The notes under the pieces are model-generated. The model saw nothing but the letters and a program-made list of their open reading frames with translations. It searched no databases and had not been told where the DNA came from. From Pseudodesulfovibrio tunisiensis (lineage in GTDB: Bacteria; Desulfobacterota; Desulfovibrionia; Desulfovibrionales; Desulfovibrionaceae), in contig NZ_CP094380.1 of NCBI RefSeq assembly GCF_022809775.1, positions 62,001 to 126,000 of the forward strand: 64,000 bases of DNA, given 5' to 3'. Both the position numbers and the translations under genes were made by a program. This document shows, one piece after another, positions 53,945 through 56,778 of the stretch (positions are counted from its first letter, which is position 1; every line of letters starts with the position of its first letter).

Positions 53945-54229
53945 TCAGCAGGACGGCTTCCGTGCCGGGCACTTGCCGCTTTCCAGACAGTAGGCATCCA
54001 CGAAGCCGCTGAGCTGATTGCCCAGATACACGCATCGTTTGCCGTCGAGACAATCGTTCGCGTCCGCGCGTTCCAGATGCGTGGACATGACGTTGCCGTC
54101 CTTGTTGAAGGTAATGATCCAGCAATCCTTGGGATTGTCGAAATCGACGGACATTTCTATGCCGTGCTTGTCTATTTCCGGATACATTTCGCGAATCTTC
54201 ATTTCCAGTTTTCCGGGATCGGCGGTCAT
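53945..54229 (-). CDS. Small hypothetical protein with paired cysteines
   Basis: 94 residues, starting MTADPGKLEMKIREMYPEID. The core CWIITFNKDGNVMSTHLERADANDC reads as an antiparallel sheet. The C-terminus has CLDGKRC and CLESGKCPARKPSC, five to six cysteines. An upstream in-frame ATG at 54340 is less likely; the chosen start has GAGAC nearby. Family not recognised. Upstream of the PAP2 gene by 55 nt on the same strand. Confidence 0.6.
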   Translation of the reverse strand: MTADPGKLEMKIREMYPEIDKHGIEMSVDFDNPKDCWIITFNKDGNVMSTHLERADANDCLDGKRCVYLGNQLSGFVDAYCLESGKCPARKPSC

Positions 54230-54433
54230 GGCTGGTCTCCGTGTGGGGCGTAGGTGGGGCCTCACGGTCGCGCCCTGTCGATCCGTGAAGCATTTTTCGG
54301 TATCATAGGCCGTCAGTCTTTTTTCGAGGATTATAACCATGCGTGATCGGGAATGATGTGATATGCGTCATGGACGAAATCTTTGGTTGCGGCAGTTCTT
54401 GTTCGGGAAAAATCAATATCCGGAGGGATAGCC

Positions 54434-55159
54434 ATGCCGGAAAAGAAGATCGGATGCGCCAGACCCACGGGCGGTCTGGTGGGAGAGTCCGCCCCCTGGG
54501 GCGATTCCGTGGAGAATGCACCTCGGCCAGCGCAAGGAGGAACGCCGATGATTCAGGTAGGCAGGAAGGCGCCGGATTTTTCCGCGCCCGCATATGTTGA
54601 TGGGGAGTTTTCCTCGGTCACGCTTTCCGAATATCTCGGGAGCTGGGTGGCGTTGTGCTTCTATCCCGGTGACTTCACCTTTGTCTGAGCGACCGAGATT
54701 TCAGCGGTCGCTGAAAAGAATGCCGAATTCGAGAAGTTGGGCGTACAGGTGCTTTCCATGAGCGTGGACAGCATGTTCGTACACAAGATGTGGGTGGATC
54801 ACGAATTGTCCAAAATGATCACGGCAGGCACCGTGCCGTTCCCCATGCTTTCCGATGGGGGAGGCAATGTGGGCAAGGCCTACGGCGTCCATGACGAGGA
54901 GGCCGGAGTGGATGTGCGCGGTCGATTTTTGATCGATCCGGATGGCGTGATTCAGGGCTTCGAGGTGCTTTCGCCGCCCGTGGGCAGGAATGTGGGCGAA
55001 ACCCTGCGCCAGATTCAGGCGTTTCAGCTTGTTCGGGCCAGCGAGGGGAGTCAGGCCACGCCGTCGGGGTGGCGGCCCGGCAAGTCCGTGCTCAAGCCCG
55101 GCACCGATCTGGTCGGCAAGGTCTGGGAGGAGTGGAAGGTTTCGATGGCTTTCGACTAG
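54434..55159 (+). CDS. Selenocysteine-containing peroxiredoxin (AhpC/TSA family)
   Basis: 241 residues reading TGA at 54686-54688 as selenocysteine. The peroxiredoxin motif is [20 protein letters not shown], so U replaces the peroxidatic cysteine of the usual FTFVCPTE. The downstream frame stays open to 55159 and is fully family-like ([48 protein letters not shown]). A SECIS-like hairpin follows the codon. No cysteine occurs after U, so the usual C-terminal resolving cysteine is absent. Two in-frame starts, 54434 and 54548, both have good ribosome sites (GGAGG, AAGGAGG). It should reduce peroxides. Confidence 0.88.
54699..54716 (+). promoter_or_regulatory. Bacterial SECIS hairpin
   Basis: TTTCAGC-GGTC-GCTGAAA: a perfect 7-bp stem with a GGUC tetraloop beginning 17 nt after the UGA. 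Loop and distance fit the bacterial SECIS rule; E. coli fdhF also exposes GGUC to SelB. An overlapping alternative hairpin AGCGACCG/CGGTCGCT (54688-54712) is possible. Confidence 0.75.
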
Positions 55160-55168
55160 AATGATCCC

Positions 55169-55193
55169 GCCCGCAGGCCGCTGGTCTGCGGGC
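55169..55193. terminator. Hairpin between convergent genes
   Basis: Stem GCCCGCAGGCC/GGTCTGCGGGC with one G-U pair and loop GCT, between the selenoprotein gene and the small minus-strand gene. No clear T tract. Confidence 0.5.
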
Positions 55194-55201
55194 GCTGCTT
55201 C

Positions 55202-55393
55202 CTATTCGTCCTTGTCCTCGGGATAGGGGACATGCGTGTATTTTTCCCAGATTTCCTTTGGAGCATTCAGCTCTGTCAGGATTTCCGCCATCTTGTGGCC
55301 TTCCTTTTTCCAGTACTTGTCGGTGTTGTCGGCGCATTCGAAAGGGATGACCAATGTGCCGTCTTCCGTGAGATATGGTTTGCTGTCACTCAT
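55202..55393 (-). CDS. Small conserved hypothetical protein
   Basis: 63 residues: MSDSKPYLTEDGTLVIPFEC, then DKYWKKEGHKMAEILTELNA, then an acidic tail. Soluble, with one cysteine. It is family-like in composition, but I do not recognise it. Convergent with the selenoprotein gene. Confidence 0.6.
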   Translation of the reverse strand: MSDSKPYLTEDGTLVIPFECADNTDKYWKKEGHKMAEILTELNAPKEIWEKYTHVPYPEDKDE

Positions 55394-55642
55394 GCGGCGA
55401 ATTATTTCAGGAAACCGCGGGTATGGCAACACGCTGAATCTGTCGGAAGCAGGTCGGGCAAAATCATCGTGCCTGCCCGCTGCAATCGCGCAAATGCATT
55501 GACGCAATGTTTCTCCGGGCGTAACACGTAGTCCGCATTCGGCTTTTTGTTGAATGATGTGTGTTTTCGGGCACGGCAGGCGCCGTCTTTTTTTATATTG
55601 ATATTTGGTGATTTTGCCAAATAGACCATTGGAGAGACTGAA

Positions 55643-56020
55643 ATGGAACGGATTGACGAAATTCTTTCTGAGATGGATTTTGATTTCTTCGGCACTGGAG
55701 AACACGCTGTCCCTGCGGATGTTGCGGCCAAGCTGGCCAAGGAAGGCAAGGCGTTCTTTCTGGATGTTCGCACCCGCGAGGAAGTCGCCTGCCTGGAGTT
55801 CCCCTTTGCCGTGAACATTCCCCTGCACGAATTGCCGGCGCGGATTGACGAACTGCCCAAGGACAAGCTGATCGTGGTTTTCTGTGCTGCCATTTTCCGT
55901 GGCGCAATGGCCTACACGTATCTCCTGCACAAGGGATTCGACGAGGTAAAGGGCGTTTCCGCTCCCACGGAAGCGCTTGCCACGCAGTTCAAGCCCGGCC
56001 CGTTGTACAAGCTCGGCTGA
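55643..56020 (+). CDS. Rhodanese-like protein
   Basis: 125 residues, single rhodanese domain (FFLDVRTREEVACLEFPFAVNIPL). The active-site loop begins with cysteine in VVFCAAIFRGAMAYTYL, and the domain ends GFDEVKGV. It would carry sulfur as a persulfide. It lies 14 nt before a TauE/SafE sulfite or sulfonate exporter, so the two form a sulfur-handling pair. AGAGA precedes the ATG. Confidence 0.85.
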   Translation: MERIDEILSEMDFDFFGTGEHAVPADVAAKLAKEGKAFFLDVRTREEVACLEFPFAVNIPLHELPARIDELPKDKLIVVFCAAIFRGAMAYTYLLHKGFDEVKGVSAPTEALATQFKPGPLYKLG

Positions 56021-56034
56021 TTCGGATTTCGGAC

Positions 56035-56778
56035 ATGGACGCATATTCGCTTTCCGCGCTCGCCTTTGGGCTGAGTTTCGTTTTTGCTCTGGGCGGTGTG
56101 GGATCGGCTCTGGTGCTGGTTCCTGTCATGCACTGGTTCGGCGTGCCTCTTGTGGAGGCGCGCCCTACCGGGCTGTTCGTCAACACGGTCAGCCTGATCG
56201 GTGCCAGCGTGTCCAATTTCAGGAAGGGCAAGCTGGATTTGGCCCTGTGTCTGCCCATGATCGGCGGGTCCGTGTTTCTTGCTCCTGTCGGAGCCTATGT
56301 TTCGACACTGCTTGAGGAACGGTTCGTGCTTGGCTGTTTCGTGGCCTTTCTGTTCTTTTCCGGCACCATGATGCTGTTTTTCAAGCGGGCCAGATATGCG
56401 AACCAGTATCGGGAGGATCGGCCTCTGACTGTGCTGACGAGCATCGGAGCCGCAGCCGGATTCGTTTCCGGCCTGCTTGGCGTCGGAGGCGGCGGGCTGA
56501 TTTCGCCCCTCATGGTCATGGCGGGATTCAATCCGAAACGCATTGCCGTGGTTACGGCCCTTGTGGTGCCATTTTCTTCGCTGACCGGATTCGCGGCCTA
56601 TTGGTCCATGGGACATTTCAATCCCGGCATGGCCCTGCCTGTGGGCATTGCCGCCTGTCTCGGAGGTTATCTGGGCTCGCATGTCATGCATACCCGTCTT
56701 TCTCCGATGGCGGTCAAACGATTTCTGGCTGTCGCAGTCCTTGTTTTGGGCATGCGCATGCTTTTCAAGGTCATCTGA
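56035..56778 (+). CDS. TauE/SafE-family sulfite/anion exporter
   Basis: 247 residues with about eight helices arranged as two halves (ALAFGLSFVFALGGVGSALVLV; AAAGFVSGLLGVGGGGLISPLM). The second half carries the glycine-rich signature of the family. It probably exports sulfite, sulfonate or another organosulfur anion. Cotranscribed with the rhodanese gene. A GC-rich hairpin follows. Confidence 0.9.
   Translation: MDAYSLSALAFGLSFVFALGGVGSALVLVPVMHWFGVPLVEARPTGLFVNTVSLIGASVSNFRKGKLDLALCLPMIGGSVFLAPVGAYVSTLLEERFVLGCFVAFLFFSGTMMLFFKRARYANQYREDRPLTVLTSIGAAAGFVSGLLGVGGGGLISPLMVMAGFNPKRIAVVTALVVPFSSLTGFAAYWSMGHFNPGMALPVGIAACLGGYLGSHVMHTRLSPMAVKRFLAVAVLVLGMRMLFKVI

Follow-up and report, generated by a model that had tools for sequence, protein, structure and literature searches.

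The prxU locus and its reading frame

The window (the whole stretch of DNA analyzed here, 64,000 nucleotides of the Pseudodesulfovibrio tunisiensis genome) carries on its forward strand a frame of 241 residues (54434-55159) whose sole internal stop is the TGA at 54686-54688, codon 85, within FTFV-U-ATE. The initial annotation had described a peroxiredoxin frame broken only by this TGA, at the peroxidatic position, and both the reading of the frame and the alignment agree with that description. Its count of 157 codons after the TGA is right as to family sequence and frame, whereas the number of sense codons is 156 and reaches 157 only if the TAG stop is counted. It also stated that no Cys follows Sec; there is indeed no Cys codon 3' of the TGA, and Cys8 and Cys75 precede it. 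The features of the locus are as follows.

54422..54426, forward strand: Shine-Dalgarno sequence GGAGG, 7 nt before the upstream ATG at 54434
54434..55159, forward strand: prxU-type selenoprotein gene, long form of 241 aa with Sec85, stop TAG at 55157-55159
54434..54547, forward strand: N-terminal arm, codons 1-38, with the consensus GCxRPTGGxVG and then a variable linker; pLDDT of the arm in the predicted model about 48-65
54455-54457, forward strand: codon of Cys8, within the arm motif
54534..54540, forward strand: internal Shine-Dalgarno sequence AAGGAGG, 7 nt before the ATG at 54548
54548..55159, forward strand: predicted short form from the internal ATG (codon 39), 203 aa, Sec47
54656..54658, forward strand: codon of Cys75, which precedes Sec by ten residues; all 124 arm-bearing genes have it, and so do 17 of the 47 other in-group genes
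54686-54688, forward strand: TGA read as selenocysteine at the peroxidatic position (Sec85 of the long form, Sec47 of the short form)
54699..54716, forward strand: bacterial SECIS hairpin, TTTCAGC, loop GGTC, GCTGAAA
55058..55060, forward strand: codon of Thr209 at the canonical resolving-Cys position (ATPSGW versus VCPAGW), in the family alignment and in one to solved peroxiredoxin-2 chains

The Pfam AhpC-TSA domain (PF00578) matches residues 42-174 with 127.8 bits, on both sides of the TGA, and a C-terminal peroxiredoxin domain (1-cysPrx_C) comes after this core. With the TGA entered as Cys, the protein scores 400.3 bits against the NCBIfam PrxU equivalog model NF040737 (peroxi_PrxU; cut-off 270), over model positions 2-233 of 233. 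We assign the window gene to the PrxU family of peroxiredoxins, with a predicted thioredoxin-dependent peroxidase activity. The model predicted for the long form (pLDDT 88) has a Prx1-type core and a low-confidence arm, and the solved chains closest to it are 2-Cys peroxiredoxins (Prx1, Prx2, Prx4 and AhpC). The gene thus has the AhpC-TSA core, the 1-cysPrx_C domain and the Prx1-like fold of the typical 2-Cys AhpC/Prx1 class, but not its C-terminal resolving Cys (VCP motif): Thr209 stands in that place, and no Cys is found after residue 85.

The protein downstream of the TGA is under protein-level purifying selection. Two homologues of the same family share 83 and 79% of its amino acids, with dN of 0.13 and 0.15 and dS of 1.32 and 1.24; for three further homologues the identity is 69-81%, dN 0.13-0.25 and dS 1.04-1.28.

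A promoter scan of 54200-55400 found no sigma-70-like site. On the strand of the peroxiredoxin gene, and downstream of it, lie genes for a rhodanese-like protein (55643-56020) and then a TauE/SafE-type transporter (56035-56778), possibly a sulfur-handling pair. Across 110 loci, no neighbor family is common to more than nine; as judged by eye rather than by family search, Fur/PerR-like proteins, rubrerythrin, catalase and flavodoxin seem to be among the neighbors.

A near-certain selenocysteine codon with a covarying SECIS hairpin

The PrxU family is present in 97 of 297 genomes of the phylum, with 110 genes including that of the window (E ≤ 1e-60). At the Sec column these phylum genes have TGA (102 of 110), TGC (6) or TGT (2). 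The comparison of this column across homologues, which the initial annotation had proposed as a check, thus finds mostly TGA, a Cys codon in eight genes, and no broken frame specific to the strain. In the protein database alignment (121 rows, i.e., the query and the best 120 of 6128 matches) the column reads W in 102 rows, C in 17, among them the query, entered as C, G in one and a gap in one. We infer that W marks TGA codons called as Trp by gene callers, because the DNA sets show TGA.

The genome consists of one contig (3.61 Mb, completeness 100) and encodes tRNA-Sec (80.6 bits; ARAGORN tRNA-SeC, anticodon tca), selB (401 bits), selA (617 bits) and selD (335 bits). The second proposed check, for selA, selB, selC and selD, therefore finds them all, tRNA-Sec(UCA) included, each over its family cut-off. 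The selD match of this genome (L018, G000:C1:2413551-2414483) has one in-frame TGA, and SelD is probably itself a selenoprotein. Four of the 97 family-bearing genomes are without a selA match at E ≤ 1e-60 (G069, G152, G170 and G272). The co-occurrence of selA with the prxU gene says little, because selA is found in 269 of the 297 sampled genomes (93 of 97 with a prxU gene and 176 of 200 without).

The SECIS hairpin begins 13 nt past the T of the TGA. Four of its pairs (14:29, 15:28, 17:26 and 20:23) covary across the 102 TGA genes, with pairing in 90, 81, 99 and 98% compared to shuffled maxima of 57, 59, 75 and 84%. The complete six-pair stem occurs in 76 of the 102 TGA genes and in none of the eight Cys genes; the hairpin is lost in genes with a Cys codon. 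Bacterial SECIS elements carry a G at the first or second position of their apical loop, a rule that the window hairpin follows with its GGTC. Across the TGA genes the loop is AGTT (58), GGTC (41), GGTT (1) or GATA (2), so that 100 of 102 have one of the first three. The first and last loop bases (window positions 54706-54709) also covary, as A-T (58), G-C (41), G-T (1) and G-A (2) of 102, and these bases are third codon positions, of Ala and Val codons in the window. Folded alone, the hairpin region of the window has its RNA energy minimum in another hairpin, which overlaps the SECIS. It was dropped as a SECIS candidate, as the covariation test, which was used instead, found that it is not conserved across relatives.

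On this comparative evidence we consider it near-certain that the TGA at 54686 encodes Sec. The initial reading as a natural selenoprotein rather than a broken gene is supported by the Sec machinery, the TGA in 102 of 110 genes, the covarying SECIS hairpin and the constraint downstream; the same four observations rule out a broken gene or a sequencing error at the TGA, whose probability is negligible and which has nothing in its favor beyond the stop codon itself.

A conserved cysteine in an N-terminal arm

The arm pattern was applied to 182 genes, comprising the 110 of the phylum sample and 72 of 80 named loci (80 of 118 stretches among the matches listed); the other eight loci were dropped as too short or not peroxiredoxins. 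Setting aside 11 rows as other peroxiredoxin families left 171 in-group genes, and in 124 of these the arm is in frame with the core. L078 and L145 were assigned as arm-bearing manually. L040 and L179 carry the arm with an internal TAG and were counted as non-arm; the TAG of L040 lies inside the core, that of L179 right behind the internal ATG and so between arm and core, and these stops may be sequencing errors or decayed genes. The other 38 stretches (39 matches, of which 2 were dropped) served as a later test set with 23 arm-bearing genes, which dereplication at 92% reduced to 20. Having come out of the same scan as the first set, they are later data, not a fully independent sample.

The arm motif of the window is GCARPTGG. 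A gene without a correctly spaced Cys does not fit the arm pattern, and the invariance of Cys8 in the arm-bearing sets is therefore a product of the selection. The unselected figure is that of the database alignment, where the Cys8 column is Cys in all 105 rows that reach it (16 of the 121 rows fall short); the Cys75 column is Cys in 119 of 121 rows. In 139 dereplicated arm-bearing genes, which were selected for this Cys, its codon is TGC in 70 and TGT in 69, and the arm-motif Arg two residues further uses all six codons. In these genes pN is 0.30 and pS 0.79. Because the Cys and Arg codons vary and pN and pS differ in this way, the arm is best read as being under selection as a peptide, i.e., as translated.

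Arm-bearing genes mostly lack the C-terminal Cys. The canonical one is present in 11 of 124 arm-bearing and 16 of 47 other in-group genes (Fisher test, P = 2e-4), and a Cys at any of three C-terminal sites in 13 of 124 and 29 of 47, respectively (P = 4e-11). Such a loss is expected if the arm replaces the resolving Cys, and we put the chance that Cys8 is the relocated resolving residue at about even. When relatedness is controlled for, only two independent pairs remain on well-supported branches (nine if all branches are counted), and a sign test gives no significant result. The exchange of arm Cys for C-terminal Cys is phylogenetically clustered and can be used as a hint only. Nor are the two exclusive, as 11 arm-bearing genes keep both. 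A FastTree tree was built of 181 genes, and 68 of its 177 inner branches have weak support. In it, genes with both the arm and the C-terminal Cys group within arm-bearing clades, and several outer clades carry the C-terminal Cys. This order suggests that the arm was gained first and the C-terminal Cys lost later.

We give somewhat less than an even chance to the alternative that Cys8 does not resolve, and that the arm instead forms inter-subunit disulfides or docks a partner while Sec is reduced by an external thiol or by Cys75. Selenols react readily with external thiols. The top fold matches include solved human Prx4 entries with the names C51A and C245A, and Cys51 of human Prx4 forms inter-subunit disulfides. 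Cys75 is found in every one of the 124 arm-bearing genes, as regular as Cys8, and it also occurs in ten genes that lack both the arm and the canonical C-terminal Cys (L149, L166, L183, L193, L201, L212, L217, L233, L239 and L240). Against this alternative, 111 of 124 arm-bearing genes are without any tested C-terminal Cys while 29 of 47 others keep one, a difference for which the relatedness control is weak. The initial suggestion that recycling uses an external thiol or the cysteines before Sec still stands, with both cysteines conserved in the alignment. The 1-Cys class is characterized by the lack of a resolving Cys in the protein; the conserved Cys8 and Cys75 of the window family may or may not act as such a residue.

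Some other groups of genes were observed in the same sets. One clade without arm or canonical Cys (L105, L107, L109, L113, L116, L118, L186 and L190) has another Cys pair about 111 and about 143 residues past the peroxidatic position, apparently a second relocation of the partner thiol. A separate seleno-peroxiredoxin clade, mostly from Bacillus-like genomes (L136, L153, L154, L168, L170 and L191), has no Cys at any C-terminal site tested, and in some of its members a Cys lies close to where the core begins. In L129 and L150 a signal-peptide-like N-terminus is followed, as judged by eye, by a Cys-containing stretch; these are perhaps exported seleno-peroxiredoxins.

A likely second translation start between arm and core

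The initial annotation was silent on the second in-frame ATG at 54548 with its strong Shine-Dalgarno sequence, as it was on the SECIS hairpin and on the conservation of Cys8. In 92% of 115 arm-bearing genes, the upstream start is preceded by a Shine-Dalgarno match of at least 5 nt. In the first set, an in-frame ATG also lies just before the core in 121 of 122 evaluated arm-bearing genes, preceded in 120 of those by a match of 5 nt or more. This count omits L174 and L182, both missed by the core pattern; the dereplicated count given below includes both, L182 being an exception. In a synonymous null model the internal match arises in 52% of cases on average (maximum 68% in 300 draws), and with gene-specific codon usage in 52% (maximum 62%). 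Downstream in these genes, just 15% of 583 Met codons are preceded by a match of this length. The spacing between the internal Shine-Dalgarno sequence and the ATG peaks at 7-8 nt.

The later loci played no part in forming the hypothesis, and 15 of their 20 dereplicated arm-bearing genes have the internal ATG with a match of this strength; the null mean is 7.6 and the maximum 12 in 300 draws. The signal is absent or weak in 5 of the 20 later genes, and 3 of 119 dereplicated genes of the first set are exceptions; it is common, not universal, in arm-bearing genes. It is found in all first-set genes of 12 named phyla and is lacking in the one Acidobacteriota gene (phylum names are those of record titles, mostly of metagenome-assembled genomes). 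Two arm-bearing seleno-peroxiredoxin genes on one Bacillota record stretch (L241) are both without it.

The ATG itself is confined to the junction of arm and core, where it is present in 136 of 139 dereplicated genes, compared to 5 of 139 in an equally long window of the linker (14-20 codons before the core motif). Its position varies; in most genes it lies 3 to 5 codons ahead of that motif. The distance of the Shine-Dalgarno sequence scatters less when measured to the ATG (s.d. 1.67 nt) than to the core motif (s.d. 2.23 nt), and its mean distance to the ATG is 13.0, 12.3 and 10.9 nt for an ATG 3, 4 and 5 codons before the core. Thus, the Shine-Dalgarno sequence follows the shifting ATG only in part.

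The locus has the sequence features expected of dual initiation, namely two in-frame starts, each with a ribosome-binding signal, conserved in relatives. From the pattern of conservation we conclude that internal initiation is under selection, and it is likely that both starts are used, giving a long product of 241 residues and a short one of 203.

An improbable alternative is that only the long form is made, and that the internal ATG and the Shine-Dalgarno-like sequence are by-products of a Lys-Glu-rich linker and a structural Met. In its favor, the amino acids of the linker are enough for a match of 5 nt or more in roughly every second gene (null mean 61.6 out of the 118 that have the ATG), five of the 20 later loci are exceptions, and the tracking of the ATG is only partial. 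The number observed after dereplication at 92% nucleotide identity is, however, 116 of 119, which no synonymous draw approached (maximum 74 in 300), and an ATG that is nearly constant at a varying distance from the core is unlike a structural Met. Codon choice in the Shine-Dalgarno zone also argues against a by-product, with AAG:AAA at 89:48 and GAG:GAA at 132:37, as opposed to 695:582 and 677:751 downstream.

It is very unlikely that the short form is the sole product, with the in-frame sequence upstream of it translated as a regulatory leader. The strong internal Shine-Dalgarno sequence would fit, as would the 16 of 121 database rows that end short of the arm column as if called from the internal start, although some of these may come from cut contigs. 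In the arm, however, it is the amino acids that are conserved and not the codons, and in 124 of the 171 in-group genes the frame continues from arm to core; genes with a stop between the two, such as L179, were not taken as arm-bearing, which in part explains why stops are missing. The seleno-peroxiredoxin of Clostridium sticklandii is moreover listed with 240 aa and Sec84 in the accessible part of PMC3091704.

A proposed two-start selenoenzyme with an arm thiol

The explanation that we favor combines a Sec peroxiredoxin, two translation starts and Cys8 as the resolving thiol, and we regard this whole as having roughly one chance in two. Based on the comparative evidence, the UGA at 54686 would be decoded as Sec by SelB and tRNA-Sec using the hairpin just downstream. 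Translation from two AUGs in one frame, both with a Shine-Dalgarno sequence of their own, would yield a 241-residue subunit with the Cys8 arm and a 203-residue subunit without it, as the conserved sequences indicate. Going by the fold, both subunits would be expected to assemble as dimers and rings of the AhpC/Prx1 type. As in peroxiredoxins generally, peroxide would oxidize Sec85 to a selenenic acid. Cys8 of the flexible arm, from its own or a neighboring subunit, would then attack the selenenic acid to give a selenenylsulfide, and this would be reduced by a thioredoxin-like protein, a partner suggested by the family name only. Cys8 would in this way take over from the C-terminal resolving Cys that is missing in most arm-bearing genes.

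More tentatively, the dual start in about a dozen bacterial phyla may make a two-subunit selenoenzyme, in which the short subunit has Sec only, the long one has Sec and the arm thiol, and the ratio of starts sets recycling in mixed rings; we consider this possible and doubtful. If it were true, a few long-subunit arms in mixed rings would recycle the Sec of their neighbors, and the ratio of the two starts would set the speed of peroxidase recycling and the readiness for over-oxidation or signaling. The position of the resolving residue and this form of peroxiredoxin regulation would both be without a report found in our literature searches. If the arm Cys resolves and the second start doses the arm, the family offers a direct test of selenium use without a resolving Cys in every subunit. 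It would also show how annotation with one start for each gene may conceal two conserved products.

Comparison with known systems

Seleno-peroxiredoxins have reportedly been known in anaerobes since 2001, when Sohling et al. described PrxU, the selenocysteine peroxiredoxin of Eubacterium acidaminophilum. Like PrxU, the window protein would have Sec as the peroxidatic residue of a thiol peroxidase, and the peroxi_PrxU model matches the window protein. The protein purified from E. acidaminophilum is reported to have 203 aa and Sec47, the same as the predicted short form of the window, which we take as a lead and not as evidence.

The statement of the initial annotation that Sec peroxiredoxins are known in anaerobes agrees with the accessible parts of the literature, which list them (PMC1794560, PMC1088965, PMC13188914): 12 in a table of bacterial selenoproteins (PMC1794560) and 43 from the Sargasso Sea (PMC1088965), with TxxU as the motif (PMC13188914). 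Reviews, as far as their text was accessible, treat seleno-peroxiredoxins as a single protein with the motif TxxU and give no account of how their Sec is recycled. Neither an N-terminal Cys arm nor a second start was found for the family in the accessible text of the literature searched, which includes PMC1794560, PMC13188914, PMC9312934, PMC8533274, PMC5302317 and PMC1088965, and likewise PMC3091704, PMC11005335 and PMC10298544, subscription papers lying mostly outside the search. An N-terminal resolving-Cys class may be described in reviews beyond those searched. CLOST_2406 of C. sticklandii, with Sec84 in 240 aa, has the layout of the long form; unlike the window gene as read here, it is listed as one protein, and the part of PMC3091704 available to us does not discuss an arm, a resolving Cys or a second start.

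Typical 2-Cys peroxiredoxins (AhpC/Prx1) differ from the window protein, which has Thr209 in place of the C-terminal Cys, Sec in place of Cys, and the extra Cys arm. The window genome also encodes an ordinary Cys-type AhpC (L248) with the C-terminal Cys (EACPAKW). Human Prx4 is similar in having an N-terminal extension with a Cys (entry name C51A), a likeness of layout. In contrast to the window protein it keeps the C-terminal resolving Cys (entry name C245A) and has no selenium.

In-frame double starts are real in bacteria, as for CheA and IF2, according to the accessible text of PMC11005335; the words peroxiredoxin and AhpC are absent from the main text of that paper. CheA L/S, IF2 alpha/beta and ClpB resemble the window gene in having two in-frame starts with a long and a short form, often of oligomeric proteins (PMC11005335, as far as accessible). 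As a selenoprotein, the window gene is a further member of the known seleno-peroxiredoxins; the conserved arm Cys and the second start are features for which our searches found no report.
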